A stretch of DNA of 47,203 nt, from assembly GCA_017536215.1 (NCBI GenBank), contig JAFXHY010000174.1:1-47203 (forward strand), in the 5' to 3' direction. The position numbers were made by a program, and so were the translations under genes. Each line of letters starts with the position of its first letter. Position 1 is the first letter of the stretch. The notes below the pieces were generated by a model. It saw nothing but the letters and a program-made list of their open reading frames with translations, was not told the DNA's origin and searched no databases. The stretch is from Muribaculaceae bacterium (lineage in GTDB: Bacteria; Bacteroidota; Bacteroidia; Bacteroidales; Muribaculaceae). Positions 2,038 through 19,948 of this stretch are shown here, in pieces.

Positions 2038-2116
2038 TGAAATCATAATTTTCAGGTAAAAAATTTAAAGTTTTATCTTGTAAAGATATAAAATAAAATT
2101 CAAATCTTTATAAACT

Positions 2117-3181
2117 TTACTTTTTTACTTGATTGGTTGCGTTTTTGAAAGGATCAAGTGCAACAGTTGGCGCGCCATTCTCAAAACAGCCGAGTTGATA
2201 GCCACCGTTATATCCGCTTGGGGCTTGAGGTTCCCAATAGAAGATACCTTCTACGTCGGCTTTCATCATCTTTTCAATCAATTGGCGGCACGCTTCAGCT
2301 TCTGAAAAGTGTTCCCCGATTTCACATATCATAATCGGTTTGTTGTACTTTTCTTTGAGGTGCTTAATATTAGCGAGACAGTCGTCGGAAACTTGTACCC
2401 AATTATCAGTACATCCAGCTTCTTTATCTTCCTCGCTTCTTACCCAATAAGGATAAAGCGACATACCAATCATATCGTATTTGCCACCATTTTGTTCCAA
2501 TATGTCGAACATTTGGTCGTAGCGATATTGGTCGTTGCCTTGGTCGAGGTGAACGATAACCCAAGCATTGGGGAATACGGCTTTAACAGCATCGTAACCA
2601 GCATTGTTGAGTTGTGTTAGCTCAACAGGGTGGTCGAGAGTGCCAACAGGGTGCATCATGCCGGGAGTCGTTTCGTTGCCGATTTGAACCCATTCCGGTT
2701 CTACACCTGCATTCTTGAGAGCATTTAGAGTTTCAGTCACATGATTACCAACAGCCTTAGTCAATTCTTCCATTGGCATATCTTTCCATGCTTCGGGAAT
2801 GTGTTGGTGACCGGGGTCGGCCCAAGTGTCGGAGAAATGGAAGTCAATCATGAGGCGCATATTCAAGCTATCTGCTCTTACGGCTTTCTTTACAACATCT
2901 TCAATGCTATTCCATTTGTCTTTGGGGTTTACCCAAACGCGCAAACGAATTGAATTTACACCGCAATAGTCGCGAAGAAGTTGCATACATTCCATCTCTT
3001 GAGGATTTTCTCCGGGAGTGTAGAATTTATCCCCTTTGGCTTCCATCTCTGTAATCCAGCTGACGTCGGCGCCACGAGCAAATCCCGTTTCTCTTTCATA
3101 CTGTTGCGTTTGCTTGCCGGTGCACGATAGTAGTGTGGCCGACAGCATTAATGTTGATGCTAATATCCAGATGTTTTTCAT
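2117..3181 (-). CDS. GH53 endo-beta-1,4-galactanase (lipoprotein, copy 1)
   Basis: Arabinogalactan endo-beta-1,4-galactanase that cleaves the beta-1,4-galactan backbone of type I arabinogalactan or pectin side chains. The 354-residue length fits GH53. A lipoprotein signal ends at Cys20 (ATLLSC). The catalytic barrel shows IRLRVWVNP, the substrate-binding segment DFHFSDTWADPG, the acid/base Glu170 in WVQIGNETTPGM and the nucleophile Glu287 in ICEIGE. It is strongly similar along its length to the upstream GH53 gene, from which it is separated by only 18 bp, so a tandem duplication is likely. Residues after Cys20 (TGKQTQ) lack the acidic cluster typical of Bacteroidetes surface-exported lipoproteins, which suggests a periplasm-facing enzyme; that is inference. 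Confidence 0.95.
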   Translation of the reverse strand: MKNIWILASTLMLSATLLSCTGKQTQQYERETGFARGADVSWITEMEAKGDKFYTPGENPQEMECMQLLRDYCGVNSIRLRVWVNPKDKWNSIEDVVKKAVRADSLNMRLMIDFHFSDTWADPGHQHIPEAWKDMPMEELTKAVGNHVTETLNALKNAGVEPEWVQIGNETTPGMMHPVGTLDHPVELTQLNNAGYDAVKAVFPNAWVIVHLDQGNDQYRYDQMFDILEQNGGKYDMIGMSLYPYWVRSEEDKEAGCTDNWVQVSDDCLANIKHLKEKYNKPIMICEIGEHFSEAEACRQLIEKMMKADVEGIFYWEPQAPSGYNGGYQLGCFENGAPTVALDPFKNATNQVKK

Positions 3182-3199
3182 GGATCTGTTTGTTTTGGA

Positions 3200-4252
3200 T
3201 TATTTTGTCTTAAATGAATCGAGAGCTACAGTTGGTTTACCATTTTCGAAGCAACCTTTTTTGTAACCGCCATTGTAGCCGGCGGGCGCTTCCGGTTCCC
3301 AGTAGAAGATACCTTTCATGTTGAGCGACTTTGTGCGACTCATGATTTCGGAAATAACTTTATTGCAAGTTTCCCCTTCTCTGTAGTCCATCCCAATTTC
3401 GCAAATCATGACCGGCTTTCCGTAGGTGGCTATGACGTAGCTGATGTTTGCAACAAGGTCGTTGACAGTAGTTTGCCAGCTTTCTACCTTGGGATAAACC
3501 GACATACCAATCATATCGTATTTGGCGCCATATCTCTTAAGCGGGCCGAATACATGGTCGTAGCGCCATTGGTCGTTCCCTTTGTCCAAATGAACTATGA
3601 CAGCGGCATTAGGGAACACAGCCTTAACGGCGTCGTAGCCGGTTGTTATAAGTTCTGAGAAGTTTTTAGGATTGTCGATAGAGCCAAGAGGTAACATCAT
3701 CCCGGGGGTTGTTTCGTTGCCGATTTGAACCCATTCCGGTTCGATGCCGTATCCGTCAAGAGCGGTAAGCAATTCGTTTACGTGGTTGGCCATTGCTACT
3801 TTTAACCCTTCCAAGTCGAGATGAGCCCATGCCGCCGGAGTGATTTGTTTGCCCGGGTCGGCCCAAGTGTCGGAGAAATGGAAGTCAATCATAAGACGTA
3901 GCCCCAAATTGTGGGCGCGACGCGCTTTAACGAGCACATCATTAATATTGTTCCACCCTTCAGCGGGATTGACCCACACACGAAGTCGAATAGCGTTTAC
4001 TCCGCAATATTCTTTAAGCAGTTTCATGCACTCCATTTGTGTTCCGTCGGGGGTATAAAATTTTTCCCCTTCAGCTTCCAATTGGGTGAGCCAACTCACG
4101 TCGGCGCCTTTGGCAAAAGTGCCACGCTCGATATCGGTTGGTTCGTCGTCGCCCGGAGGAATAGGTCCCGGATTGTCTTCGGAGCAAGCTGATGGTATGG
4201 CAACCGCAGCTGCTATTCCCAGGTAGACCAAAATCTTTTTTAATCTTTTCAT
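3200..4252 (-). CDS. GH53 endo-beta-1,4-galactanase (lipoprotein, copy 2)
   Basis: Second endo-beta-1,4-galactanase of the locus, 350 residues. The lipoprotein signal ends at Cys23 (PSAC) and is followed by SEDN and a Pro/Asp-rich linker to about residue 42. This resembles the acidic export signal plus tether seen on surface-exposed Bacteroidetes lipoproteins, so this copy is the better candidate for cutting polymer outside the cell. The barrel has IRLRVWVNP, DFHFSDTWADPG, acid/base Glu180 in WVQIGNETTPGM and nucleophile Glu285 in ICEIG. It follows the SusE/F-like gene after a 204-bp gap containing two hairpins, and shares a probable transcript with copy 1. Confidence 0.95.
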   Translation of the reverse strand: MKRLKKILVYLGIAAAVAIPSACSEDNPGPIPPGDDEPTDIERGTFAKGADVSWLTQLEAEGEKFYTPDGTQMECMKLLKEYCGVNAIRLRVWVNPAEGWNNINDVLVKARRAHNLGLRLMIDFHFSDTWADPGKQITPAAWAHLDLEGLKVAMANHVNELLTALDGYGIEPEWVQIGNETTPGMMLPLGSIDNPKNFSELITTGYDAVKAVFPNAAVIVHLDKGNDQWRYDHVFGPLKRYGAKYDMIGMSVYPKVESWQTTVNDLVANISYVIATYGKPVMICEIGMDYREGETCNKVISEIMSRTKSLNMKGIFYWEPEAPAGYNGGYKKGCFENGKPTVALDSFKTK

Positions 4253-4292
4253 TATAATTGTTTAAATGTATAGGGCTAATTATGTATGTTGT

Positions 4293-4377
4293 CTGTCAAT
4301 GTTTGGCCGTTAAGGATTCCGAATTATTGGCAATGCGGCAATAATTGGATTGTGTTTCCATAACGGCCAAACGACAG
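4293..4377 (-). repeat. Long interrupted palindrome between the SusE-like and GH53 genes
   Basis: An 85-bp symmetric structure. CTGTC plus GTTTGGCCGTTA (4293-4312) is complementary to TAACGGCCAAAC plus GACAG (4361-4377), with a short bulge. A second stem lies inside it: AATTATTG at 4322-4329 pairs with CAATAATT at 4339-4346. It lies in the transcribed gap on the minus strand and has no U-tract, so it is more likely an mRNA processing, stability or attenuation element than a simple terminator. Confidence 0.75.
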
Positions 4378-4424
4378 AACTTATTGTACACTAAACCCCT
4401 TTAACTATTTCGGATTTTAGATTT

Positions 4425-4456
4425 TTAACTTAACGAAAATAATATCGTTGAGTTAA
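4425..4456 (-). repeat. Hairpin directly after the SusE-like stop codon
   Basis: TTAACTTAACGA at 4425-4436 pairs with TCGTTGAGTTAA at 4445-4456, with one wobble position in 12 and an 8-nt loop. The stem abuts the stop codon of the SusE/F-like gene on the minus strand. Only a short A-rich/T-poor stretch follows in the transcript direction, so intrinsic termination would be weak. It may protect the 3' end of the SusC-SusD-SusE message. Confidence 0.6.
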
Positions 4457-6169
4457 TTAAAGATTTGAATAAGAGTATGTGCTATTAACAAGGTCGACAG
4501 TCAACAAATAAGAACCATTTGCAAGTTCATTATCGCCATCAAAACCATCCTGACCATAGATGAGCTGTCCGCTACCGCCACCGAAGCAAACATCCCAGCT
4601 TTGGTTGATGAGAATTTTAACACCCCAAGGAGTTTCTGCAATTTTTTCAACTATAGCAGTGTAAACACCTGGAGTTTCAGTAGCTGTCATCGGGAATTTG
4701 CCCCAGTCGTCATTAAGACCCGAGTAGTGAACTGTAGTTACAGGAGTCAATTCAAAAGTGAGACTTTCCAGGCTGGTGTTGAAGATATAAAGACCTTGTT
4801 CGGGAGCGGGAATGTTGGTTTTGGCACCATATTTAAGGTTGCCACTCATAGCGTCGCCTTCGCCGCCAAAGCCCCAAGATTCATCCCAATTTTCAGCTTC
4901 TTTATAGAGTTTGTAGCCCCATTCAGATGCCATGTAAACGCCACCAGCATAAGCTTTTTCATCTTCGTTGTATAGGCGCAAGAAGTTGTTGAAATGCCAG
5001 CTACCAGAAACTAAGTCGTCGTGACCTGATAGATAGAGTAGCGGACTAACCGGTTCTACCGGTTCGTCAGATGCAGCTTCAAATACTATTGCCCATTGAA
5101 GCGGGTTGACCATTTTGAGTTTCATTACTTGAACACCTGATGTGCCTACATTGATAGCCACTGTCGATGCGCTCTCAGAGAGGCTAAGATTGTCGGCAGA
5201 TCCATTGAGCGCCACAGGCTTGGTGATTGAAGAGTCTTTATCGCCGGTAGAGACGTCATATAGAGTACCTGTGCCTGAAATGGTAATGTTTTTAGCACCT
5301 GATTGAGTGTCGACTGTCATTTTCCATTCGCTGGCCTTGCGGTCAAATTCCATAACGCCGTTGATGTCGCCCGATACTGTCAATTCCGGAATATGTAGTG
5401 CGCTCCACCACATTTCTACAGTATTTACTGTAGTGTAGTAGCAACCCGCAGGTTCGGGATACCAGAAATTGTAGATTTTGTCCTCAAGGGCAAGAGATGA
5501 CACATAGAAAGTGCCGGCTGTGGCAGAGTTACCCCATATTACGCCAAGAGCATCTTGCATGTACCAGTTTTCCCATCCGGCAACTCCAGCAAAGCCTTCG
5601 TAGATGCCGTTTTCAGTGAGAGATATAAGAGTTCGGGTAGTAGGCTCTTGACTCTTGTTGAGCACATAAGCCACAGTCATGTCAATCTTGTAGGGAGTTA
5701 CGAAGATGCTGAGCACATTGCTGTAGGTGGGATCAATGTTCTTACCCACAACAGATTTAATTCTAACGAATACTTCAGCGCGAACGCCCCCTTCAACACC
5801 GAGACGGCTCATAATCGAGTTGAGCTCTGATACGGTAAATTGATAAGAGTAGATGCCATCGGCAACTGTAGTGTTTACAACTTCGTTGAAATCTTGAGAG
5901 AGCGACATTTCAATGCTATTGGTGAGAACACCATCGGGCAGAGCAACGTCGGGATTGCTAAGAGACAAATTGCCGTTTTCATCCCAGTTGAGAGTCAGCG
6001 CAAGGGCTTCGAGATTATCGTAGTCAAGAACAATCTCCTCAGCAGAGGCACCCATAGTGACATCATCGTTGGTGTTGAGCGTCAGGAAGTCGCCGTCCTT
6101 GTCGCATGATGTCACGACAAGTATTGTCAAAGCCGACGCAATGATGCGCGATATATAATTAGTTTTCAT
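4457..6169 (-). CDS. SusE/SusF-like surface glycan-binding lipoprotein
   Basis: Outer-membrane surface glycan-binding protein that would help hold galactan near the SusCD importer. The 570-residue product has a lipoprotein signal ending at Cys22 (VVTSC) followed by DKDGD, an acidic stretch consistent with surface export. The N-terminal part (about 25-155) looks like the SusE Ig-like domain. The middle and C-terminal parts are beta-rich, aromatic modules (for example WENWYMQD and NFWYPEPAGCYY near 200-250, and HYSGLNDDWGKFPM near 480) resembling SusE/SusF starch-binding-type modules. It begins 5 bp after the SusD stop, which fixes it as the third gene of the SusCD operon. Ligand specificity is inferred from neighbours only. 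Confidence 0.88.
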   Translation of the reverse strand: MKTNYISRIIASALTILVVTSCDKDGDFLTLNTNDDVTMGASAEEIVLDYDNLEALALTLNWDENGNLSLSNPDVALPDGVLTNSIEMSLSQDFNEVVNTTVADGIYSYQFTVSELNSIMSRLGVEGGVRAEVFVRIKSVVGKNIDPTYSNVLSIFVTPYKIDMTVAYVLNKSQEPTTRTLISLTENGIYEGFAGVAGWENWYMQDALGVIWGNSATAGTFYVSSLALEDKIYNFWYPEPAGCYYTTVNTVEMWWSALHIPELTVSGDINGVMEFDRKASEWKMTVDTQSGAKNITISGTGTLYDVSTGDKDSSITKPVALNGSADNLSLSESASTVAINVGTSGVQVMKLKMVNPLQWAIVFEAASDEPVEPVSPLLYLSGHDDLVSGSWHFNNFLRLYNEDEKAYAGGVYMASEWGYKLYKEAENWDESWGFGGEGDAMSGNLKYGAKTNIPAPEQGLYIFNTSLESLTFELTPVTTVHYSGLNDDWGKFPMTATETPGVYTAIVEKIAETPWGVKILINQSWDVCFGGGSGQLIYGQDGFDGDNELANGSYLLTVDLVNSTYSYSNL

Positions 6170-6174
6170 TGTTA

Positions 6175-7743
6175 TTAGTAATTGGGATTTGACAGATTAG
6201 TGTTAACCGACAATTCAGTAGCCGGGATTGGATAGATTTCATATTTGGGATCAACAGCAGTGCCGTCCATCACGCCACCTTTCCATTGCCAAATATATTT
6301 ATCGGAGGTAAACATATCGAAACGACGAAGGTCGGTGCGACATACAGATTCATGCAATAGTTCGCGAGCTCTTTCGTCGATGAAGAATTGCAAATTCATT
6401 TCAGCGTCGGTGATATTACCTGAGATGTCGCCATAAGCGCGTTCGCGCACTTTGTTGACGAGATCTAGGGCTTCGCTGCGGGTCATGCCCTTTCCACCTC
6501 TTACTACAGATTCAGCAGCCATCAAATATACATCAGCCAAGCGGAATACCGGGAGGTCGGTAGAACAACCATTTAAGGCAGTGTTGGAAGCTTGCGTGCC
6601 ATCATCATAAAGGTTGGTGAATTTTTCGCTGAAGTATCCATTTGTTTGGTCGTTGTAAACTGCAAGATATTGAGTTTGTCCATCGGTGTAGAACATGCAA
6701 CGAGAGTCCTTAGAAGTGGCTACGTCGCCAAATTTGGCGGGAATTTCACCACGTACGCGGAAGTTACCCCAACCGCTTGTGATACCATATTTAGCAGGGT
6801 CTTGGCTAGATGAGTTAGAGCAAGAACCGCAAATGATATTGGTAGTGGCACCAAAGGTCACAGTAGTTGTAGCATCGATAACAAACGGGAAGATAATTTC
6901 GTTGGTGCGAAGATGATTTGAAGCGTTGAAAAGTTTGTAGAATTCAGGTTCAAGCGAGTATTTGCCACAGTTGATAACCTTGTTGCAATAAGATATACAT
7001 TCGGTGTAGTAGGCTTGGCGAGTGTAAACTTCTGCGTTAAGGTAAAGTCGAGCAAGGAGTGACCATACGGCACCACGAGTAACTCTACCATATTCGTTGT
7101 CGAGAGGTACCTCTTCTTCGATTTCTTTAAGTTCATTTTCAATGAATTCGAACAACTGAACGTCGCTATATCTTTCAGGAATATATCCTGAGATAGGAGT
7201 GTTCTCATCAGAGAATGGACCTTGAGCATAGAGGTCGAGCACCCAATAGTAGGCAAGAGCGCGAAGGAATCTTGCTTCAGCCTTCATGTTTCTGATTCTC
7301 TGTTGTCCGGCTTCATCAAATCTAGCAATTGAACTTTCCCCGGAGTTGCGGATAAACTCGTTGCACACAGAGATAGTGTAGTATAGTCGGTAGTAACCAT
7401 CCTGTACCCACACATCGTTTGCATCCCATTTGAAATGAGAAATGTTGTAGAGAGAACTCCACGTGTTGATACTTTCTTCGGTGGGGTCCTCTTGCATGTT
7501 GAAGATGCAACGAGAAAGGTCATAACCCTTTTCCGAATCAATATCTTTATCTCCGTCCTTCTCTTGACCGGTGATAACAAAACAAGCATAAGCCTTTGCG
7601 AGAACTTGGAGGTAGCTGTCGGGGGAACTGTAAACCACCGAGGCGTCTTTCTCGAATACCGGGCGTTGGTCGAGATCATCGACACACGATGTCGTTGTCG
7701 CAGCCATCAAGCCCAAGGTTAACATTATAATCGTTTTTTTCAT
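6175..7743 (-). CDS. SusD/RagB family outer-membrane lipoprotein
   Basis: SusD-like nutrient-binding lid that pairs with the SusC channel at the cell surface. It has 522 residues. A lipoprotein signal ends at Cys20 (TTTSC), followed by the usual VDDLDQRP-type start. The N-terminal half contains the helical TPR-like region (EARFLRALAYYWVLDLYAQGPF is a classic SusD segment near 160-180). The C-terminal half shows LPVFRLADVYLMAAE and the terminal RxDLRRFDMF / YPIPATEL pattern of RagB/SusD proteins. It starts 22 bp after the SusC stop. The likely ligand is a beta-1,4-galacto-oligosaccharide, inferred from the GH53 and GH2 genes downstream. Confidence 0.96.
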   Translation of the reverse strand: MKKTIIMLTLGLMAATTTSCVDDLDQRPVFEKDASVVYSSPDSYLQVLAKAYACFVITGQEKDGDKDIDSEKGYDLSRCIFNMQEDPTEESINTWSSLYNISHFKWDANDVWVQDGYYRLYYTISVCNEFIRNSGESSIARFDEAGQQRIRNMKAEARFLRALAYYWVLDLYAQGPFSDENTPISGYIPERYSDVQLFEFIENELKEIEEEVPLDNEYGRVTRGAVWSLLARLYLNAEVYTRQAYYTECISYCNKVINCGKYSLEPEFYKLFNASNHLRTNEIIFPFVIDATTTVTFGATTNIICGSCSNSSSQDPAKYGITSGWGNFRVRGEIPAKFGDVATSKDSRCMFYTDGQTQYLAVYNDQTNGYFSEKFTNLYDDGTQASNTALNGCSTDLPVFRLADVYLMAAESVVRGGKGMTRSEALDLVNKVRERAYGDISGNITDAEMNLQFFIDERARELLHESVCRTDLRRFDMFTSDKYIWQWKGGVMDGTAVDPKYEIYPIPATELSVNTNLSNPNY

Positions 7744-7765: not shown

Positions 7766-10732
7766 TTAGAAATTAAGTCCTACAGTAAGTGAATAAGTGC
7801 GTGGACGAGGATATACGCTAGAATCAATACCGCCACTCACTTCAGGGTCGATGCCTGAATAATTTGTGATAGTGAACACATTTTGGACGTTAGCTGACAG
7901 ATTCAAGCTGAGACCATCACAAACACGTCCGAAGTCATAGCTCAACTGTAGATTGTCCATTTTCAAGAATGATGCATTTTCAACATAGTGGTCGCTGAAA
8001 TGTTGACGTACTGCAAAACCTGTTTCAAGATAGCTGCTGTTGAGGTTGTTGAGCTGATATGCGTTGTACGAAACAGTTTCCCATGCGCCCATGTTCATTG
8101 CATTGGCATTGTATACATAGTTTCCTATGTTAGCACGCAAAGATGTTGAAAGAGTCCATTTTTTGTAGCGGAGGCTTGTGCTAAGACCGAGAATCCAGTC
8201 GGGAGCAGGTGAGTGATAGTGGTAAAGGTCGGAAGAGTTAATCTGACCGTCATCGTTCAAGTCGGCATAAACACCTTCGATTGGTCGACCGGTCTTGGGA
8301 TCGTACACCTGTTTGTAAACGTAGTAGGCATAAGGAGCGTATCCGGTAGAGAATACTTGAACGCGGCGGCTGTCGACTGATGAACCAACGAGAGTGTTAG
8401 GTGATTCAGCGTCGGGCGACATAGTAAGGTTTGTGATACGAGCTTTTTGCCAAGTTGCATTTGCGGCTACGTTCCATGACCAATCCTTGTTCTCAATGAT
8501 ATTGGCGTTGATTGAAAGTTCGAAACCTTCACTATCAACGTTGCCTACGTTGGAAAGGATATATTTAGCGAAGTTAGTGCCGGCAGCACAAGGAACTGAT
8601 GCCAACAAGTCTTCGGTAGTGCGTTTGTAGTAGTCGAAGCTGGCAGTGATGCGGTTGTTAATCAATCCGAAGTCAAGACCAATGTTCCAAGCCTTTGTAG
8701 TTTCCCATTGAAGATCGGGGTTATATTTTTCCGGACGATAAGTGTAGATGGGCACTCCGTTGAATACGTATTGTGCACCGTCTTGAGAAATAGTGTAAAC
8801 CGGCATGTAAGAGTAGTTGGCAATACCATCTTGCTGACCTGTAATACCATAGGAAGCACGAACTTTAAGATCGTTAACGATGTCGCGCAACGGTTCGAAG
8901 AAATTTTCTTGCGAAATACGCCAAGCAAGAGCTACCGATGGGAATGTCCCCCAGCGTTTAGATTTAGCAAAACGAGAAGAGCCATCGCGACGGAATGTAG
9001 CAGTTAACAAATAGCGGTTGTCGAATGTGTAATTCAAACGTCCATAGTATGACAGAAGGGTGTGACGTTCGTCGGAAGGAGCTGAGGTAGATTGCACTTC
9101 GCCGGCTACGTTATAGCTTTCGTAGTAGGGTGAATAGCGTTTCCACCATTGGTAGTCATAACCAAAAGTAACATCGACAGAACTTTTTATAGCGTCGAAA
9201 TCTCTGTTATAGTTGGCGTAGATTGTGAACAACTTATTGTAGGCTTTTTTCGGGCCAACACATGATACAGAACCACCGGAGTTGAATCCGCTCCATGATT
9301 CGGCGGGAGTGAAATAGTCGCTTCTACCTTGAGCACGGTCGTAGGCTGCAGTTGCATGAAAACGAAGACCGGGAACCGGACGAACATTGTAATCAACATC
9401 AATGCTACCAATCACGCGGCTGGTGTGCGACTTGTTGCGGTAGTTAATAAGCCCCACGGGGTTGGCAGTAGCGCCGGTTACGGGAATGCCGTTGATATCT
9501 ACCGGTTCGTTGAAGCCAAGGAAACTTTCATCTCCTGAATATACGGGAATAGTGGGGTTGTAGGTTGTAGCGTTCCAAATTGTAGAGCCGCTGGGATAAC
9601 GGCTCACATTATAGGTAGCTTTACCGCTGATAGTGAATCGAAGGTCGTTGTTGAAGAAAGAGGGACTTAAATTCAAGTTAGCTGAGAATCTCTTGTTTTG
9701 GTCATTCTTTATGATACCTGATTGATAAAGAGTTCCAATTGAAACACGGAAGGGGAGCCAATCTGTAGCATGTCCGGAAACGCTGAGGTTGTTGTCGGTG
9801 CCGAAGCCTGTTTGCATCACCAAATCGGTCCAGTCGGTGTTTTCTTCGCCAAGAAGTGCAATTTGAGCGTCGGAGCCGTTAGTGCGTATAACATTGACAA
9901 ACTCATCTCTGGAGAGCATGTTAGCAGTTTTTGTCTTTGTAGAAATAGAGTTGGTAGTTTGGAAAGAAACTTTCACACCTTCACCGTGCCCTTTTTTGGT
10001 AGTGATAAGAATAACACCATTAGAAGCACGAGAACCGTAGATGGCAGTAGATGATGCATCTTTAAGTACTGTCATGCTTTCAATGTCGTTGGGGTTAATC
10101 ATAGAAAGGAAGTTGCCTTGGCCTTGGATGTATCCACCCACTTCCATAGGCACGCCATCAATAACGATTAGGGGGTCGTTAGATGCATTCAAAGATGCTC
10201 CACCACGAATACGGATAGTAGAATTACTAGTTGTGGCACCACCGGCATTAACGATTTGTACGCCCGGCATCTTACCGTTGATAAGTTCTTCGGGAGAAGA
10301 GATAACACCATGGTTGAAATCTTTTTCGCTGATTGATGATACAGAACCGGTAAGGTCATTTTTCTTACGGACACCATATCCGATAACCACAACTTCGTCC
10401 AATGCTTCAGCATTAGGTTTCATTGTGAAGTCCATTACGTCGGAAGTAATATCGACAGTAATAGGATTGTATCCCACGTAGGCAACGTGAAGTTGCTTTC
10501 CTGTGGCGGGAACTTTCAACGTATATTTGCCGTCGAAATCAGTTGAGGTACCGATAGATGTTCCTACAACCTGAACTGTTGCTCCGAGGAGAGGTTCGCC
10601 TGTTTCATCACTGACAGTACCCGTCACTGTCCGTTGTGATTGTGCAAGTGCCGAAACGGGTATAAAGAGTATTGCCAGGAATAAACCCAACAAACGGCTC
10701 CTTATTCGGGTTGCACCGATTGATTTGTTCAT
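7766..10732 (-). CDS. SusC/RagA family TonB-dependent outer-membrane transporter
   Basis: TonB-dependent importer of oligosaccharides across the outer membrane, 988 residues. A signal peptide of about 30 residues (ending ALA-QSQ) precedes a carboxypeptidase-regulatory-like beta-sandwich (TVTGTVSDETGEPLLGATV to about residue 110). Next come the SusC signature ALDEVVVIGYG and the plug domain (GSVSSI, IRIRGGASLNASNDPLIVIDGVP). A 22-strand barrel ending in an aromatic residue (TVGLNF) completes it. It is the first gene after the HTCS gene, with a 186-bp gap carrying a promoter-like element and phased repeats. Transport substrate is inferred from the locus. Confidence 0.97.
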   Translation of the reverse strand: MNKSIGATRIRSRLLGLFLAILFIPVSALAQSQRTVTGTVSDETGEPLLGATVQVVGTSIGTSTDFDGKYTLKVPATGKQLHVAYVGYNPITVDITSDVMDFTMKPNAEALDEVVVIGYGVRKKNDLTGSVSSISEKDFNHGVISSPEELINGKMPGVQIVNAGGATTSNSTIRIRGGASLNASNDPLIVIDGVPMEVGGYIQGQGNFLSMINPNDIESMTVLKDASSTAIYGSRASNGVILITTKKGHGEGVKVSFQTTNSISTKTKTANMLSRDEFVNVIRTNGSDAQIALLGEENTDWTDLVMQTGFGTDNNLSVSGHATDWLPFRVSIGTLYQSGIIKNDQNKRFSANLNLSPSFFNNDLRFTISGKATYNVSRYPSGSTIWNATTYNPTIPVYSGDESFLGFNEPVDINGIPVTGATANPVGLINYRNKSHTSRVIGSIDVDYNVRPVPGLRFHATAAYDRAQGRSDYFTPAESWSGFNSGGSVSCVGPKKAYNKLFTIYANYNRDFDAIKSSVDVTFGYDYQWWKRYSPYYESYNVAGEVQSTSAPSDERHTLLSYYGRLNYTFDNRYLLTATFRRDGSSRFAKSKRWGTFPSVALAWRISQENFFEPLRDIVNDLKVRASYGITGQQDGIANYSYMPVYTISQDGAQYVFNGVPIYTYRPEKYNPDLQWETTKAWNIGLDFGLINNRITASFDYYKRTTEDLLASVPCAAGTNFAKYILSNVGNVDSEGFELSINANIIENKDWSWNVAANATWQKARITNLTMSPDAESPNTLVGSSVDSRRVQVFSTGYAPYAYYVYKQVYDPKTGRPIEGVYADLNDDGQINSSDLYHYHSPAPDWILGLSTSLRYKKWTLSTSLRANIGNYVYNANAMNMGAWETVSYNAYQLNNLNSSYLETGFAVRQHFSDHYVENASFLKMDNLQLSYDFGRVCDGLSLNLSANVQNVFTITNYSGIDPEVSGGIDSSVYPRPRTYSLTVGLNF

Positions 10733-10826: not shown

Positions 10827-10834
10827 CAAAATTA
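10827..10834 (-). promoter_or_regulatory. -7 element candidate for the susC operon
   Basis: The minus strand reads TAATTTTG here, a match to the Bacteroidales -7 consensus TAnnTTTG, about 95 nt upstream of the susC ATG. No good TTTG -33 element is visible 19-21 nt further upstream, as expected for an activator-dependent promoter. Confidence 0.5.
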
Positions 10835-10866
10835 TAATTTTAGAAATGTAAAAATGTATTAAAATT

Positions 10867-10893
10867 GGACAAAAAGTGGAACAAATCGGACAA
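10867..10893. promoter_or_regulatory. Three phased GGACAA-like repeats, candidate HTCS operator
   Basis: GGACAA (10867), GGAACA (10878) and GGACAA (10888) are spaced 11 and 10 bp apart, so they face the same side of the helix. They lie 33-60 bp upstream of the susC -7 candidate and just beyond the HTCS stop codon. An AraC-type output domain typically binds direct repeats one turn apart, so this is a plausible binding site; binding itself is inferred. Confidence 0.5.
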
Positions 10894-10918
10894 CTGTCTG
10901 TTTTGATGACTATTTTAA

Positions 10919-13900
10919 CTAAATCTCGTCGTCTGATTGGTATTGGCTTGGTTTGACTCCGAATTGAGCTTGGAAGCATTTCGCGAAATAGGAAGGAGTC
11001 TTAAATCCCACCATATATGCAATTTCCGAAACAGTGAATCGTCGTTGACTCAAAAGCACTGCTGCTTTCTGCAACCTCACTCTACGAATATAGTCAAGAG
11101 GAGCAGTATTCATATATTTCTTTATCAATCGGTAGAGATGTTTTTGATCCAATCCGAGTTTTTCGCACAATGAATTCACATTTAAGTCGGGGTCGGAAAT
11201 ATTCTCTTCGATAGTTTTGGCAATTTTAGCAAGAAGTTTTTCGTTGGCAGTTTCGGCTGTAATCGGTTTTGACTCTGATTCAGTTATTGTTTGAATCCTA
11301 ATTTTCTCTTTTATGTCGTTGCGCGATTTTAGTAATAATTTGATGCGCCCAATCAATGCTTTTGGCTCAAAAGGCTTAGCCATAAATACATCAATTCCCA
11401 ATTTAATACTCTCATTTTCTGTGGGATTATCACTTTTCGCGGTTAGCATGATTATGGGAATATGAGATAATCGAGGGTGCTGTTTTATTAATTTTACCAT
11501 CTCCAACCCACTCATTATCGGCATCATTTCGTCGACAATAATCAAGTCAGGCAAAAATGATGATGCAATTGCAAATCCTGAACGTCCGTTTGCGGCAGTC
11601 AGCGTAGTGAAATCATTATTGAGGCAGTCAGCAATAAAATCACTTATCTGGGCATTGTCGTCAACGATTAATATCTTAGACTTGCCGACATTGCCGGGTT
11701 GATATATGTGACTGCAATGTAGGGCAACATTTTCAGAAATAGGTAGTGTCACTACAAAAGAAGTGCCTTGCCCCTCTTTACTATAAAGAGATATGTTACC
11801 TCTCATTAATTCGAGGTATTTCTTAATTAGGTATAATCCCAATCCGGTGCCTTCTTTGAGTGCAGATGCCGATGCCGAGCGATACATGCGTTGGAACACC
11901 AACGATTGGTCGCTATCGGAGATGCCTACACCGTCGTCGGATACCACGATTTCTACATTTTCCCCTTGTTTGCTGATGCCACATGAAATTGTTGCGTCGG
12001 CATTGGAATATTTGCAGGCATTTGAAAGTAGATTGGTTATGATTGATTCAAATTTTACGGCGTCACCCTCGATATGGATTTGCTCTACTGATGAGTGGAA
12101 CACGAAATTCTTCTGAGGATTGTTCTCTTTAAACACATCAAATACCCCTTTGCAAAATTCAACGATATCAAACGTTGACAATATCAACATACTCTCGTCG
12201 GCATCTTCCAAATGTTGAAGCTCGATAGTGCGATGTATCATATTGTTTAACCTGACAGCATTGTTGTAGACTGTTTCAAGGCTTTTTTTGCTTTCTTCAT
12301 CTTTGGCTCGTTCTTTCAGTTGGCTCACCGGTCCAATTATCATTGATAGCGGGGTCTTTAGGTCGTGGGATATATTGGATAGGAATGACAACTTTCGCTC
12401 TACGCTTTCTAATTCATTCTGTCGTTCTTGCTCTCTAAGCGCTCTGATGCTACGTTTTCTAACATACCAAATTATCCAAATAATCAGAGCAATCGCAACA
12501 GCAATATATGCTATTATTGCCCATGTAGATAATGCGAAAGGCGCTTTGACTGTCAGTGGTATCGCAATTGGAGCCATTGGCGACCCTATTGTCTTGACTA
12601 ATAGGTTGTAGCTCCCCATGTTGAGGTCGGAGAAAGTGATTGTATTGGAGCCTTCGGGCATCACAATCCATCCGCCATGCATATCTTCTTTCGATTTTGA
12701 AAGTTTGTACATATAGCGTTGTACAGCCTCAGGGGAGTAGTCGAGTGAACTTACCACGAGTGTGATACCGCCTCCGGATGGAATGGTTATCACGTTATCG
12801 CTACCTTGCAAATCCGATAAATTGAAGTGCCCTTCACCGGTATCGTTCAGCACCATTTTGATGGTTTTGTAGTCGGTGGCTTTGTTGATAATGTCGCGAT
12901 CAACTTCTACTATTTCATCAGTTCCGCCGAGATATACCTTGTTGCTGAGCTTGTCCTCATATACTGCAGTGTAGGATTTTTGGGGAATAGGCAATAGTTG
13001 GGCCTCTAACGTAGTGCCATTTATACTCCACACGTTGCTCAGTGTTGAAACCCAAAGACCGTCAGCAACAGCACCGATTGCCATAATTGACTCATCACTA
13101 TTGGTCTGTGGAAATCTAATTGTCTGATATTTTCCGGTAGTAGTGTTGAAGATTATAGCCCCATCTTTGTGGGCACACCATACATTCCCGTTATTATCAG
13201 TGCATAGATGCGTGGGATATTCTCCTGCGATATTGAAAATATCATATTCTGTGGCTTCCCCGGTTGCCGGATTATATCGAGTCAGTACATTGTCACGATA
13301 TAATAATATCCATAAGCAACCTTGTTGGTCCTTTACGATATTGTTGATAAAATCATTATTAAGGTTGAAAGGAGTTGTCTCAGAGTTAATTGACTTGTTG
13401 GCGGCAATAATGCCTCCATTGATGTCAAATTTATTTTTGTCAACATAGTGTATGCCATTAAGAAAGCTCCCAATCCAAAAATGGCCTTTATCTTCTACGA
13501 TTGCATATACCCAGTTAGAATTATGCTTGCCATTCTCATCTACAATATAAAACACGTCAAAACTGTTACTGCCTTTATTTAAACGATTGACTCCGGCATC
13601 GGTTGCAAACCACATGTTGTGGTCAGAGTCTTCGTAAATCGCGCGTATTCTATTGTGAGATAGTGAATTTCCTGATTCTGAGTGGCGATACCATATAGGT
13701 TGACCGTTCATCGACAAATGTAGGATTCCATTTGTGCCTCCCAACCATAAGTTATTGCTATGGTCGCGATATATGTGGAAAATTTCATTTCCCTCACCCG
13801 AAAGGGTCAGCGAACTGAGTTTCAAGGTTCTTATTGCTCTTGAATTAGATGCTATGGAGAATCCTCTATCATGACCTGCCAAAATGTTATTCTGAGAATC

Positions 13901-14824
13901 GACGAATATGCTCCATATTTCATTACCGGCTAAACTTAACTCTTGCCGAGTGTCATGTCGATAGTGTTTCATTCCCTCTTTTGAGATGTCAAAAACACCA
14001 TTGTCGGTGCCAACGAAAATATGACCTAATTCCCCTCGAGTCATACTCTTAATATTGCCACTTTCCGGTATGATAACTTTTTCCCATTGCTCATGTATCG
14101 GGAAATAGCGCAAAAGAAACCCCTCTCCACCCACGTAGATGCTTTCTTTATCGTCGTTTTCAAGTAGACAGTTGACAAAGAGTGTGGTTTGTTGCCCAGT
14201 TAATGTTGGTTCTATTTCTATCTTGTTGAAACACTCGGATTTGGAATCCCAACGAGCCAATCCATCGTAGGTCCCTGCATAGAGTACTCCGCGACTATCT
14301 CTGATGATTGAGTAAACCGAACGATGGGGTAGCCCTTCGGAATAATCGCTCATAATATTAGTTGAAAGATTATACCTTAAAATTCCATTCAATCCACCAA
14401 TCCATAGGTTGTTGTCGGCCAAATGTAGCACACGTATTTCTTTTGGTGTTGGAAATTCCGCTTCATTCAAAAGCCCTGATGCATAATCATAAATCAGTAA
14501 ACCGTTATTGCTCCCAATATATAGTTTGTTTTCATGTTCTATTATAGAATATATTTGCAATCCGGCACGTTCTGCTATATTGACAGAATGGGTAGCTACG
14601 CCATCGTAGAAGTATAAGCCATTATTTGAGCCAATCCACACAAGTCCGCGGCTGTCCTTAAAAATGCAGAATACGGTGGTTTTTTTGCCGTCGACAGTAA
14701 CATTTTTCCACGACAAATCCGGGTCGGGGAGTTGAGTCTCTGCCAACCCGCTGAACGGCACTATGATAGTGATTATTATAAGTAAAAATCTCAGTGCAAC
14801 ACTGCTGTTACGATGCTTCCTCAT
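10919..14824 (-). CDS. Hybrid two-component system sensor/regulator (HTCS)
   Basis: One-protein sensor and transcription activator of the galactan locus. The ATG at 14824 is preferred over an upstream in-frame ATG at 14878, because it places a signal peptide (MRKHRNSS then a hydrophobic run to GLAE) at the N-terminus; the product is then 1,301 residues. The order is: periplasmic two-component-regulator propeller repeats (many DSRGLVWIGSNNGL-like blades to about 660), a Y_Y_Y domain, and a membrane segment at about 765-788. A HisKA domain with His820 in SNISHDLKTP, a HATPase (NLLSNACKYS, GTGLGLYL) and a receiver with phospho-acceptor Asp1098 in IIVDEMMP follow. The C-terminal AraC helix-turn-helix ends in VGFKTPSYFAKCFQAQFGVKPSQY. 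The periplasmic part probably binds a galacto-oligosaccharide. Confidence 0.95.
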   Translation of the reverse strand: MRKHRNSSVALRFLLIIITIIVPFSGLAETQLPDPDLSWKNVTVDGKKTTVFCIFKDSRGLVWIGSNNGLYFYDGVATHSVNIAERAGLQIYSIIEHENKLYIGSNNGLLIYDYASGLLNEAEFPTPKEIRVLHLADNNLWIGGLNGILRYNLSTNIMSDYSEGLPHRSVYSIIRDSRGVLYAGTYDGLARWDSKSECFNKIEIEPTLTGQQTTLFVNCLLENDDKESIYVGGEGFLLRYFPIHEQWEKVIIPESGNIKSMTRGELGHIFVGTDNGVFDISKEGMKHYRHDTRQELSLAGNEIWSIFVDSQNNILAGHDRGFSIASNSRAIRTLKLSSLTLSGEGNEIFHIYRDHSNNLWLGGTNGILHLSMNGQPIWYRHSESGNSLSHNRIRAIYEDSDHNMWFATDAGVNRLNKGSNSFDVFYIVDENGKHNSNWVYAIVEDKGHFWIGSFLNGIHYVDKNKFDINGGIIAANKSINSETTPFNLNNDFINNIVKDQQGCLWILLYRDNVLTRYNPATGEATEYDIFNIAGEYPTHLCTDNNGNVWCAHKDGAIIFNTTTGKYQTIRFPQTNSDESIMAIGAVADGLWVSTLSNVWSINGTTLEAQLLPIPQKSYTAVYEDKLSNKVYLGGTDEIVEVDRDIINKATDYKTIKMVLNDTGEGHFNLSDLQGSDNVITIPSGGGITLVVSSLDYSPEAVQRYMYKLSKSKEDMHGGWIVMPEGSNTITFSDLNMGSYNLLVKTIGSPMAPIAIPLTVKAPFALSTWAIIAYIAVAIALIIWIIWYVRKRSIRALREQERQNELESVERKLSFLSNISHDLKTPLSMIIGPVSQLKERAKDEESKKSLETVYNNAVRLNNMIHRTIELQHLEDADESMLILSTFDIVEFCKGVFDVFKENNPQKNFVFHSSVEQIHIEGDAVKFESIITNLLSNACKYSNADATISCGISKQGENVEIVVSDDGVGISDSDQSLVFQRMYRSASASALKEGTGLGLYLIKKYLELMRGNISLYSKEGQGTSFVVTLPISENVALHCSHIYQPGNVGKSKILIVDDNAQISDFIADCLNNDFTTLTAANGRSGFAIASSFLPDLIIVDEMMPIMSGLEMVKLIKQHPRLSHIPIIMLTAKSDNPTENESIKLGIDVFMAKPFEPKALIGRIKLLLKSRNDIKEKIRIQTITESESKPITAETANEKLLAKIAKTIEENISDPDLNVNSLCEKLGLDQKHLYRLIKKYMNTAPLDYIRRVRLQKAAVLLSQRRFTVSEIAYMVGFKTPSYFAKCFQAQFGVKPSQYQSDDEI

Positions 14825-14932
14825 GATACCTAAGGTATGATTTTTCCAATTGATGGCGTCGGGAAGGGAATGACGCAAAATCGATGATGTTATATGTAGA
14901 GAAGATGATGTTTACAAAGGAAATCATTATTG

Positions 14933-15142: not shown

Positions 15143-16438
15143 GTGAGGATTGTTTTATTGTGTATTTTAACTATGTTTATCACGATGTCGTTGTCGTCTA
15201 AAGATAACGAATCAATTGATATGCAATATGCCGATACCTCAACGGTAGAAGTCCATTCAAAAATATATTATCCGGTAAACAAGGTTGATATATATGAAAA
15301 TTATATGACCAACCGAAAGCAGTTGGATTATATCAAGCGACATCTCGCAGTATCTCCTCGAATAGATAGCATAACGATACATTCATTTGCCTCGCCCGAA
15401 GGACGATACAGTTTCAATAAGTGGTTGGCAGAAGAACGCGGTAAAACAGCCAAACGATATATCTTAAGTAATATACCGGAGTATCGTCATTTCCCAGATT
15501 CGTTGGTAAGAATTGCCCCAATAGCAGAAAACTGGGCGGGAATGCGAGAGGAGATAGAAAAGAATTATCAACTCGCCGACCGCGAAGAGGTCCTGGCGAT
15601 TATAGATAAGCCCGGGGTGAGCGACGAAGAGCGTAAAAAGTTGTTGAAGGGATTGAATAGAGGGGAATCGTGGGTGTATATCTTGAAAAATATAATGCCA
15701 CAACTACGTTATGCTACGTGGGTGTCGGTGTGGCAACCGGTAGGAGAAGTTACACCTGCGCCTCCGGTTTTGCAGTTGCCTGTAGGGGAGCATGCTGTTG
15801 CTCCACTTGAATTGGAACCTGTAACATTTCCTTTAATAGTTCCGAAGATTGAATACGACACAAAGACGATATTGGCGCTAAAATCCAACTTATTGTATGA
15901 TGCATTGTCTTGGGTTAATTATTCAATAGAAGTCCCGTTTTGCGGAGATAAGTTTTCGGCATTATACTATCACCAATTCCCATGGTGGAGATGGGGAGAG
16001 GGTAACAATAAATATTGTATCAGATTCTTAAGTATAGGAGGCGAAGGGAGATGGTGGTTTAAGCCTCAACCACGCCCGGCAACCGAAACACGCAGAAAGC
16101 GAGATTGTCTGGTGGGACATTTCATTGGCGCATATTGCGAGTCGGGGAAATATGATTTCGAGCGTAGACGAGACATTTGCTATCAAGGAGAATTTTGGAG
16201 CGTTGGCTTGAGCTATGGTTATTCAATGCCTATCGGACGTTATCTCAATCTTGAATTCTCTATCTCGGCAGGTTATGCTTCGATAGCCCATAGGGGATAC
16301 ACACCATCATCCGATTACAATATTTTGTGGCGTGATTACGAGAAGATAGGGCGTTGGCACTATCTGGGAATTACAAAAGCACAAGTTTCGTTGGTAATTC
16401 CGATAACAATCAAGGTGAAAAAAGGAGGCGGATTATGA
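15143..16438 (+). CDS. DUF3575 / OmpA-like fimbrial outer-membrane protein
   Basis: Outer-membrane protein of the type found at the head of Bacteroidales fimbrial operons; its exact role is unknown, probably anchoring or assembly. The start is GTG at 15143, since an in-frame stop lies at 15119 and no ATG precedes the signal peptide (RIVLLCILTMFITMSLS). Residues about 25-140 resemble an OmpA-like alpha/beta fold (SITIHSFASPEGRYSFN and LAEERGKTAKRYI). The C-terminal half (from ALKSNLLYDAL, about 252) is the DUF3575 beta-barrel-like domain rich in aromatic alternation. The stop overlaps the next gene's ATG by 4 bp, so translation is coupled. Family assignment is from remembered sequence features. 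Confidence 0.8.
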   Translation: MRIVLLCILTMFITMSLSSKDNESIDMQYADTSTVEVHSKIYYPVNKVDIYENYMTNRKQLDYIKRHLAVSPRIDSITIHSFASPEGRYSFNKWLAEERGKTAKRYILSNIPEYRHFPDSLVRIAPIAENWAGMREEIEKNYQLADREEVLAIIDKPGVSDEERKKLLKGLNRGESWVYILKNIMPQLRYATWVSVWQPVGEVTPAPPVLQLPVGEHAVAPLELEPVTFPLIVPKIEYDTKTILALKSNLLYDALSWVNYSIEVPFCGDKFSALYYHQFPWWRWGEGNNKYCIRFLSIGGEGRWWFKPQPRPATETRRKRDCLVGHFIGAYCESGKYDFERRRDICYQGEFWSVGLSYGYSMPIGRYLNLEFSISAGYASIAHRGYTPSSDYNILWRDYEKIGRWHYLGITKAQVSLVIPITIKVKKGGGL

Positions 16439-17496
16439 TGAAATACAGTAAAATTCGTCGACTATTCGTGTTATGTTTGCCATTATTGATGGTGGCGTTC
16501 GTGGCATGTGAGCATCGTCCTTTGGAGGATCCATATAATATGCATTATGTGCGTGTTTATATTGATGAACAGATAAAAAATGTGACCTACGGATTTTATG
16601 ATGAATCGCGATTGCGCCCGGAATATATTCGTCCGCGAGTGTTGCGAGTAGCATTATGCGATCCTATAACCAATAAAGTTGTTGTAGAGCGATATTTGCA
16701 GACCACGGAGGAGGATGAACGCGGATACTATATAGATGGATACATTTCGGCGGAGGAAGGAGAGTATAATCTGATGATATATAATTTTGGCACGGAAAAG
16801 ACTAAAATTAGAGATGAATATAACTATTCAGGCATTCAAGCATATACATCGCAAATACCGAAAAACTATCATCAGTACATTCCGATGTCGAGCGTTGATA
16901 TCGCTGAGGAAGCAATAAGATATTGCCCTGACCATTTGTTTGTGGCGAATTGTCAACCCGTTAAAGTCGGCAAGAGCGTCGGCTTGGATACGTTGCGAAA
17001 TCAGGACGGCGATTTCTTTACCGCACGGTCGATAGTATTATCGTATTATCTTCAAATTAAAATTAAAGGTTTTAATTATGTTAGTACGGCAGTGTCGTTG
17101 CTAAGCGGTATGGCAGGGTCTACTACATTGAGTGATTGCACTTTGAATAAAAATGATGCAGTCAGCATATTCTTTGATATGGATTATGCCGATGTGCAGC
17201 GCACTAAAAACGAAGATAAAGAAACGGCAATTTTATATGCTACTTTTAATACATTTGGGAAATTACCGGAGGAAAGAAGTATTTACACTCTGAACTTCGA
17301 ATTTAATAAAAGTGACGGGACATCTCAAGTTGAAACAATAGATATAACCCCAATGTTCTTTGACAATCCGCTGGTAGTGAATGAGCAGTGGATAATCTTG
17401 GAAAAAGAAATTGAGATATCGCCACCTATTGGCAGTGGAGGAATGACCCCCGGAGTAGATGAATGGGGGGATATTTGGACTGATATTTATTTGTAA
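16435..17496 (+). CDS. DUF5119 / Mfa2-like fimbrial anchor lipoprotein
   Basis: Probable fimbrial anchor or assembly lipoprotein, 353 residues. The start is the ATG at 16435, which overlaps the previous stop as ATGA; a further upstream in-frame ATG at 16354 would put a charged stretch before the signal and is rejected. The lipoprotein signal ends at Cys25 (AFVAC) followed by EHRPLED. The body shows beta-sandwich features of FimB/Mfa2-type proteins: RVLRVALCDP, a GEYNLMIYNFGTE segment near 120 and PDHLFVANC near 170. These fit DUF5119, a family usually found beside fimbrillins. It sits between the DUF3575 gene and the first fimbrillin. The DUF name is moderately certain; the fimbrial role comes from context. 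Confidence 0.78.
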   Translation: MMKYSKIRRLFVLCLPLLMVAFVACEHRPLEDPYNMHYVRVYIDEQIKNVTYGFYDESRLRPEYIRPRVLRVALCDPITNKVVVERYLQTTEEDERGYYIDGYISAEEGEYNLMIYNFGTEKTKIRDEYNYSGIQAYTSQIPKNYHQYIPMSSVDIAEEAIRYCPDHLFVANCQPVKVGKSVGLDTLRNQDGDFFTARSIVLSYYLQIKIKGFNYVSTAVSLLSGMAGSTTLSDCTLNKNDAVSIFFDMDYADVQRTKNEDKETAILYATFNTFGKLPEERSIYTLNFEFNKSDGTSQVETIDITPMFFDNPLVVNEQWIILEKEIEISPPIGSGGMTPGVDEWGDIWTDIYL

Positions 17497-17535
17497 AACA
17501 TATTCATTAATCCTTAATACTAATCAAAAAAAATT

Positions 17536-18720
17536 ATGAAAAAAAGTGTTTTATTTACAGCACTTGCAAGTGTGGTACTTGTAGGATGTGTAAGCGAAGA
17601 GGTGACAGACCTAGGCGAAAAATCAAAAGCTAAAATTGCATTTGATGCTCCTGTAATGTATAGCAATGAAAATTCGAGAGCAAATGTTTATGGGGAAGTA
17701 GGTTCACATGTTTATGGTGGACAGCAGTATTCTTATCCAAGAGAAGAAAATTTTGTAATTTATGGAGTGAGCCATGAAGGGGATTTTGCTGGATGGAATA
17801 GTGGCACACCGGCAGTGTTCAGTGGTACCGCGATTTCTTATGACAATGACCTCGATGGATGGGCTCCCAAGACAGCAACTGGAGGGTATTATTATTGGGA
17901 ATCAGGTAAAAAAATGACTTTTGCAGCATGCTCACCTGCCGATTTGGAACAAGAGAATTGGCGAGAAGGTGACAACAACAGAACTTACGGTGCGACAGGA
18001 TTGACAATTACCAACTTTGAGGTGAATGAAGATGCTGCCCACCAATATGATTTGTTGTTCAGTACACGTGCTTGCAACCAAACGTCATCCGACATGCAAC
18101 AATCAGCTAGCTATTATAGCGGTATCCCTATCAAGTTCCAACACGCACTTTCTTCTGTTCGCTTCTCTATAGCAAATAGCTCACCCGAAACAGTGGTGTT
18201 GACAGGCATTAAATTGGCGGGCGTGAAATATAAAGGAACATTCAATGAAAATATCGTGGAGCAACCGTCAAATTATGCTCAATATGAGAGAGGAGATGCC
18301 GGTAATGTAAATCCCGCATGGGAAGTTGCTGCGGATGTAATCAACACTCCGTATTTGGCATTCCAGGGCTCGGTTACTTTCCATACCAATCCCCGATATG
18401 TATCAGCATTGGTGGAAGAAGCAGATATCGATACCAATGTGTGCAATCAATTGTTGCTTATGCCTCAAGAGTTGACAGAGGATGTTGTTCTTACTGTAAA
18501 TTATACAGTGAATGGAACACCTAACCATAAAGAAGTTCAATTGAGCAACTTGCTATCAGGCGAGGGTGACGTGAAAACTCCGATTAATGAATGGGAAATG
18601 GGCAAACGTTATACTTATCGCTTGCACTATAGCTCTGCAACAGCAGATAGAGATAAAATCTATTTCGCCCCCTCTACTACAGAGTGGCAAGATGTTGATG
18701 TTATAATCGTAGAATTATAA
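17536..18720 (+). CDS. Fimbrillin family lipoprotein 1 (Mfa-like), candidate major pilin
   Basis: Structural fimbrial subunit of the FimA/Mfa type, 394 residues. The lipoprotein signal ends at Cys18 (VLVGC). In this pilus type the subunit reaches the outer membrane as a lipoprotein and is trimmed by an Arg-specific protease before donor-strand polymerisation. Typical family features are SKAKIAFDAPV after the signal, an Arg in NSRANVYGE (a plausible cleavage site near residue 50), IKFQHALSSVRFSIANSSP near 200 and the C-terminal STTEWQDVDVIIVEL. It has its own 39-bp spacer from the upstream gene and is followed by a perfect hairpin, which makes it the best candidate for the most abundant subunit. 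That ranking is inference. Confidence 0.85.
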   Translation: MKKSVLFTALASVVLVGCVSEEVTDLGEKSKAKIAFDAPVMYSNENSRANVYGEVGSHVYGGQQYSYPREENFVIYGVSHEGDFAGWNSGTPAVFSGTAISYDNDLDGWAPKTATGGYYYWESGKKMTFAACSPADLEQENWREGDNNRTYGATGLTITNFEVNEDAAHQYDLLFSTRACNQTSSDMQQSASYYSGIPIKFQHALSSVRFSIANSSPETVVLTGIKLAGVKYKGTFNENIVEQPSNYAQYERGDAGNVNPAWEVAADVINTPYLAFQGSVTFHTNPRYVSALVEEADIDTNVCNQLLLMPQELTEDVVLTVNYTVNGTPNHKEVQLSNLLSGEGDVKTPINEWEMGKRYTYRLHYSSATADRDKIYFAPSTTEWQDVDVIIVEL

Positions 18721-18730
18721 TCTGATATTC

Positions 18731-18776
18731 TATTCATATTCATCAACCGGCAATTGTCGGTTGATGAATATGAATA
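18731..18776 (+). terminator. Perfect 19-bp hairpin between the two fimbrillin genes
   Basis: The arm at 18731-18749 is exactly complementary to the arm at 18758-18776, with an 8-nt loop (GCAATTGT). It starts 10 nt after the first fimbrillin stop and ends 15 nt before the next ATG. The following bases (TTTATAAATT) are T/A-rich but not a clean T-run. It could be a partial terminator or a 3'-end stabiliser setting pilin stoichiometry. Confidence 0.7.
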
Positions 18777-18791
18777 TTTATAAATTCCTTT

Positions 18792-19943: not shown

Positions 19944-19948
19944 AGAAA

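Follow-up and report, generated by a model that had tools for sequence, protein, structure and literature searches.

The locus and its question

Between a hybrid two-component system (HTCS) gene and a susC gene of a Muribaculaceae bacterium lie three GGACAA-like units, and we asked whether they form the operator by which this regulator acts on the adjacent polysaccharide utilisation locus (PUL). The window, i.e., the whole stretch of 47,203 nucleotides that was analysed, is a contig of a 1.8-Mb draft genome that is 69% complete. Pfam and domain searches identified the following genes, all on the minus strand:

10919 to 14878, minus: HTCS regulator, the presumed binder, with Pfam domains Reg_prop, HisKA, HATPase_c, Response_reg and HTH_18/HTH_AraC
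7766 to 10732, minus: susC (TonB-dependent receptor; Pfam and open reading frame), first gene of the target operon
6175 to 7743, minus: susD
4457 to 6169, minus: SusE-like / DUF5111 / DUF5114 protein
3200 to 4252, minus: GH53 (endo-galactanase family) gene
2117 to 3181, minus: GH53 (endo-galactanase family) gene

The tandem GH53 pair (2117-4252, minus strand) closes the operon. As originally predicted, the HTCS gene is the direct neighbour of susC, ending 186 bp before it on the same strand, and an AraC-type DNA-binding domain, as expected of a cognate HTCS, is thus encoded beside the target. The receiver domain of the HTCS carries the letters SHIP, and the closest loci in named records come from Muribaculaceae and from metagenome-assembled genomes labelled Barnesiella, Porphyromonadaceae, Bacteroidales and Mediterranea. 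A fimbrillin-like cluster lies beside the PUL (15143-24633, plus strand), encoding a DUF3575 protein, a DUF5119 protein, an Mfa_like_1 protein, one protein without a Pfam match, a protein whose ricin-type lectin match falls slightly below the cut-off and a 1032-aa protein that matches FimA weakly.

Arrangement of the boxes upstream of susC

Re-reading the sequence confirmed the 11- and 10-bp spacings and the coordinates of the original prediction, with GGACAA at 10867-10872, GGAACA(A) at 10878-10884 and GGACAA at 10888-10893 of the plus strand. Read on the susC-coding minus strand from 10893 to 10867, the arrangement is TTGTCC-4-TGTTCC-5-TTGTCC, followed by 32 bp and then TAATTTTG:

10888 to 10893, minus: A1 box TTGTCC, distal half-site (sequence and ortholog alignment)
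10878 to 10883, minus: B1 box TGTTCC, second box of the distal half-site (sequence and ortholog alignment)
10867 to 10872, minus: A2 box TTGTCC, proximal half-site, its TGTCC starting 37 bp upstream of the -7 element
10857 to 10862, minus: expected place of a fourth box, B2, reading TTAATA, decayed compared with TTTGT of wider relatives
10834 to 10827, minus: putative susC -7 promoter element TAATTTTG (match to TAnnTTTG)
10895 to 10899, plus: A0, a weak and uncertain candidate, TGTCT, 7 bp before A1, the only inverted box in the window

The two TTGTCC boxes start at 10893 and 10872, forming a direct repeat of 21 bp, and TAATTTTG matches the consensus TAnnTTTG described for the -7 element of Bacteroidetes primary-sigma promoters (PMC7366714). 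No TTTG is present at about -33 in the window, nor is any column conserved there in the alignment of 16 orthologs described below. The -33 box is thus missing as predicted, which fits an activator-dependent promoter. The units had been placed immediately upstream of the -7 element; they do lie upstream of it, and the wording is loose only in that 32 bp separate the last unit from TAATTTTG.

Conservation of the arrangement in orthologous gaps

Among 41 HTCS loci that include the 3' end of the gene (the window among them), susC lies directly downstream in 21, and removal of five duplicates left 16 distinct HTCS-susC gaps of 115 to 362 bp. The TAnnTTTG element was present in all of them, and in all 16 the proximal TGTC[C/T] started exactly 37 bp before it. 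The original prediction had staked itself on the repeats being conserved when this gap was aligned in related loci, and it withstood that comparison. A2 is the most conserved box, TTGTCCGAT being the strongest box of the logo, and the stretch separating it from the -7 element has diverged, all columns from 9 to 36 bases past the A2 start holding 0.75 bits or less. Upstream of the first T-rich columns of A1, no column of the ortholog alignment exceeds 0.6 bits.

The other two boxes are kept less strictly. A1 is weak in the logo and reads TGTC[C/T] in 10 of the 16 gaps, so that both A boxes are kept in these 10, and it has decayed to GGTCT, AGTCT, TGGAA or GTCTG in the remaining six. B1 is strong in the logo (1.2-1.5 bits in the TGTTGC columns), with exact TGTTGC in nine gaps, one base off in six and absent in L037. 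The predicted count of three units stands, whereas their likeness does not, the middle unit being a different box. Three equal repeats are consequently ruled out: B1 looks like an A box because the window reads TGTTCC, one base off the consensus TGTTGC found in 9/16 orthologs.

Wider relatives clarified what this middle box belongs to. The full form consists of two TGTCCnnTTTGT copies 21 bp apart (L064, L198-L201), each made up of an A box and a B box, suggesting that the triplet of the window is A1-B1-A2 of a four-box operator with two half-sites, of which B2 has decayed. In 12 of 37 further HTCS loci (35-40% identical), the region downstream of the gene has TGTC[C/T] at a distance of exactly 37 bp from TAnnTTTG; the box is altered in two more (L044, L056), and in another two the distance is 38 bp (L060, L063).

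Association with one HTCS clade

Of the 46 HTCS loci whose first recognition helix contains K[QHLN]xYR, 29 have the A2-37-(-7) pattern, which was found in none of the 84 others. The 17 K[QHLN]xYR loci without an exact site comprise L009 and L038, the near misses L044, L056, L060 and L063, and 11 others, for most of which the available flank is limited to about 1.5 kb. L009 and L038 represent a single locus (54% identical) that was encountered twice; neither susC nor a site was found in its 16 kb. In the second helix-turn-helix (HTH2), FKTPSYFAKCFQ is found in 13/16 orthologs, with one or two residues changed in L028, L031 and L041; in 14 of 16 distant relatives the same segment opens with FS[SN]. 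These data fit recognition of the A box by HTH1 and of the B box by HTH2, a correlation along one branching of the family that is confounded by descent, since one clade is compared against others. The A and B boxes typical of AraC-type half-sites, about 10 bp apart, are complete in relatives and B2 is decayed in the window, and the pairing of helices with boxes is a matter of correlation.

Occurrence of the pattern in genomes

TTGTCC-4-TGTTNC-5-TTGTCC is matched exactly once in the 1.8-Mb draft, with no further match within two mismatches; allowing up to three mismatches gave 13 matches against five for the reversed control. The shorter TGTCY-32-TAnnTTTG matched twice in the draft against once for its control, and no second TGTC[C/T]-32-TAnnTTTG site occurs anywhere in the window, PUL included. 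Across the family, the two-A-box pattern was found in 31 of 397 genomes compared with two for the reversed control. Outside the family, an order-wide scan barely exceeded its control (16/393 against 11), and seven of these 16 sites are HTCS-adjacent sites known from the HTCS search.

Genes downstream of 17 pattern sites were inspected. SusC-like genes (by sequence) follow four sites (L197, L205, L218, L221), a GH53 gene (Pfam) follows the L198 site, and a GH5-like protein is encoded downstream of five (L193, L199, L200, L201, L203), two of these proteins having been scanned, with Pfam matches just under the cut-off. Five further sites precede genes with no evident galactan link (L202, L217, L224, L225, L232), and no gene was called downstream of L212 and L231. 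The sites of L198, L199 and L203 adjoin an HTCS; those of L193, L200 and L201 are on contigs different from that of the HTCS found in the same genomes.

An inverted box upstream of A1

Many relatives carry a further, inverted A box, A0. The motif [AG]GACA occurs 5-70 bp upstream of A1 in 31 of 52 non-redundant sites, compared with a shuffle mean of 7.9 (maximum 16 in 300 shuffles), and forward A-box copies upstream of A1 were seen in five sites (2.6 expected). In the window itself A0 is weak or lost, the sole remnant being a weak AGACA 7 bp from A1. Distances upstream of A1 cluster, 25 of 37 inverted boxes lying at 17-20, 26-28 or 38-40 bp. Over all 37, helical phasing gave R = 0.62 at 10.5 bp, a value to which orthologs contribute as non-independent observations. 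With one value per related group, p was 0.0008 (nearest box, 19 groups) and 0.012 (23 inverted boxes), rising to 0.0028 and 0.046 when the period was scanned; as the groups were chosen by eye, the phasing is suggestive only. A0 overlaps the HTCS stop codon in many susC orthologs. In L032, where the stop lies farther away, A0 is again 39 bp from A1, indicating that its position is tied to A1 rather than to the stop. If A0 truly binds the regulator, this inverted third half-site would add a novel component to HTCS control.

Two other roles for A0 were considered, of which the first was rejected as a general explanation and the second gained no support. As the operator of a divergent promoter it should have an own-strand TAnnTTTG at 37 bp, which was found for none of the 40 listed inverted boxes; such an element lies 39 bp beyond the box in L049 and 94 bp beyond it in L232. 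L049 is a possible exception to this rejection, as its HTCS lies on the side of A0. A0 as a general HTCS feature was unsupported, a one-mismatch inverted copy being present in only 2/12 paralog operators with other boxes (L161, L180).

The L049 arrangement is of separate interest: its operator lies in front of the HTCS gene (1507-5412) and points away from it, while the inverted box and its TAnnTTTG are on the strand running towards the HTCS, so that self-control of this HTCS is possible. Upstream of the GH5-like gene in L193 and L200, two inverted A boxes 21 bp apart are found 38 and 59 bp upstream of A1. This pair resembles an inverted operator and has no own-strand TAnnTTTG at 37 bp.

The same geometry in paralogous HTCSs

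To see how general the geometry is, we took 80 other HTCS loci and scored the surroundings of each TAnnTTTG, in flanks or upstream of susC, for self-repeats. The non-duplicated panel comprised 80 sites in 48 loci, every TAnnTTTG being accepted by its sequence. A lag of 21 bp at a distance of 37 bp ranked first of 2184 combinations (9/80 sites, against a background of 1.2%), and the mean 18-mer match of 6.49 compares with 5.21 for random draws (sd 0.22; maximum 6.00 of 2000 draws). A clear repeat is confined to a minority of sites, with 12 distinct operators at 8 or more of 12 matches, and the box sequences vary among paralogs, e.g., GAGACTATTTTT in L136. Since the geometry of 21 bp and 37 bp recurs with different boxes, it appears to be shared while specificity varies.

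A second peak at lag 21 was seen 77 bp from TAnnTTTG (7/74 sites). Repeats 76-78 bp upstream of TAnnTTTG occur in L126, L132, L137, L157 and L164, and L138 and L154 also score near 77 bp because they carry two TAnnTTTG about 40 bp apart. The 77-bp repeats could be a class I position or reflect a mis-chosen -7 element.

Much of what gut Bacteroidales consume as glycans is under HTCS control, yet few HTCS operators are known. A fixed operator-promoter spacing across paralogs would offer a simple way to look for an HTCS operator beside a TAnnTTTG promoter, and would also help to link recognition-helix residues to DNA boxes. A far-reaching generalisation can be formulated from these analyses, which we consider improbable as a whole: HTCSs would follow a general rule of a 21-bp repeat with the proximal half-site 37 bp from the -7 element, whatever the box; the galactan lineage would add a third half-site, inverted and an integral number of helical turns away from A1 on its upstream side, where it frequently overlaps the HTCS stop codon; and a membrane-bound dimer would swap between A0-A1 at rest and A1-A2 when active. 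AraC is known to exchange partners with a distant operator.

Proposed function and alternative explanations

Judged by the sequences, A1-B1-A2 is very probably the site at which the HTCS encoded next to it binds and, together with the -7 element, controls an operon for beta-galactan utilisation (susCD-susE-GH53-GH53). The idea of an AraC-type activator operator is hereby supported, by the 37 bp kept in 16/16 gaps, the HTH_18/HTH_AraC domain and the clade distribution of 29/46 against 0/84, with the correction that there are two half-sites and not three equal operators. In the mechanism that we propose, a periplasmic galacto-oligosaccharide would lead the HTCS to phosphorylate its own receiver domain, which would free the AraC-type domains. 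HTH1 would then sit on the TGTCC box and HTH2 on the TGTTGC/TTTGT box, two protomers lying side by side on A1-B1 and A2-B2 along one face of the DNA. Judging from their position and from general AraC biology, the protomers may touch the primary sigma factor where the -33 box is missing, i.e., class II activation.

An operator of the same AraC-type, direct-repeat kind might instead serve another regulator, such as a stand-alone AraC-family protein common to these genomes. The L197, L205, L218 and L221 sites speak for this, since no HTCS is evident within the 3-kb locus around the SusC-like genes that they precede, and so does the different AraC-like protein encoded upstream in L200. However, the arrangement in its exact form tracks the HTCS clade, and all 16 distinct tandem loci have it between HTCS and susC; we hold another regulator to be unlikely. 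Chance repeats in AT-rich intergenic DNA would agree with the lack of GGACAA enrichment as a word in the window (18 matches, 22.15 expected), but this explanation is refuted by the spacing kept in diverged orthologs and by the match being the only exact one in the draft genome, leaving it a negligible probability.

The repeats, together with the inverted GGACAA near the HTCS stop of relatives, might also represent a hairpin or terminator of the HTCS transcript and no DNA operator at all. A0 and A1 are complementary by nature, and predicted folds pair them in L003, L006, L029, L036, L037 and L041 and weakly in L008 (-0.9 kcal/mol), while L028 has a 12-bp hairpin starting in A0 and the window a terminator-like match at 10887-10900 of the plus strand. 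With pairing in about half of the A0-bearing orthologs, an RNA role for A0 is possible. Yet A0 is unpaired in L001, L002, L004 and L007, the window's own fold to A1+10 is weak (-2.8), and a hairpin gives no reason for the fixed 37 bp from A2 to the -7 element; the folded stretch stopped before A2 and is thus uninformative on that box. As a full explanation of the repeats, a transcript hairpin is very unlikely, and an HTCS operator is the reading that we carry forward.

Comparison with known systems

In E. coli, the AraC site araI1-I2 adjoins the promoter and consists of two half-sites in direct orientation, spaced by about 21 bp and each divided into an A and a B box. The operator proposed here resembles it in its full form, as seen in relatives. 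E. coli AraC is a cytoplasmic arabinose sensor acting at a sigma-70 -35 region, whereas the HTCS is a membrane-bound phosphorelay protein acting at a Bacteroidetes -7 promoter.

Among HTCSs, receiver-plus-DNA-binding fragments of BT4124 and BT4663 bind the susCD-homolog promoters of bt4114 and bt4662, respectively, in EMSA, and the SHIP motif has been linked to phosphorylation-gated binding (PMC11253607). These systems share the SHIP motif with the HTCS of the window and respond to other substrates (PMC11253607). Similarly, a BT0366 HTCS fragment shifts, in EMSA, the BT0365 and BT0366-BT0367 promoters, which hold predicted HTCS sites, and a supplementary figure marks these sites and the -7 boxes according to its legend (PMC5061871); BT0366 belongs to an arabinan system, as opposed to the galactan locus here.

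Direct-repeat motifs for Bacteroides HTCSs, including HTCS_Pga (BT4673, pectic galactan), were predicted by footprinting, with an average of 21 bp between tandem sites (Ravcheev et al., 2013; PMC3878776). The arrangement upstream of susC is a candidate HTCS operator of this direct-repeat kind. Neither the 37-bp spacing nor an inverted HTCS half-site is mentioned in the passages covered from PMC3878776, PMC11253607, PMC7366714, PMC6874557, PMC5061871 and PMC12125979, and the spacing grammar reported here is sharper than that which we found described there. With the motifs of Ravcheev et al. (PMC3878776) the operator shares an AraC-type HTCS, a direct repeat of about 21 bp and co-localisation with susC/susD; the comparison with BT4673 covers motif class and substrate. 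In contrast to the two conserved sites and non-conserved spacer of those motifs, as given in PMC3878776, the operator family of the window has a conserved middle box, B1, and a -7 element at a fixed distance of 37 bp, to which many relatives add an inverted box upstream.
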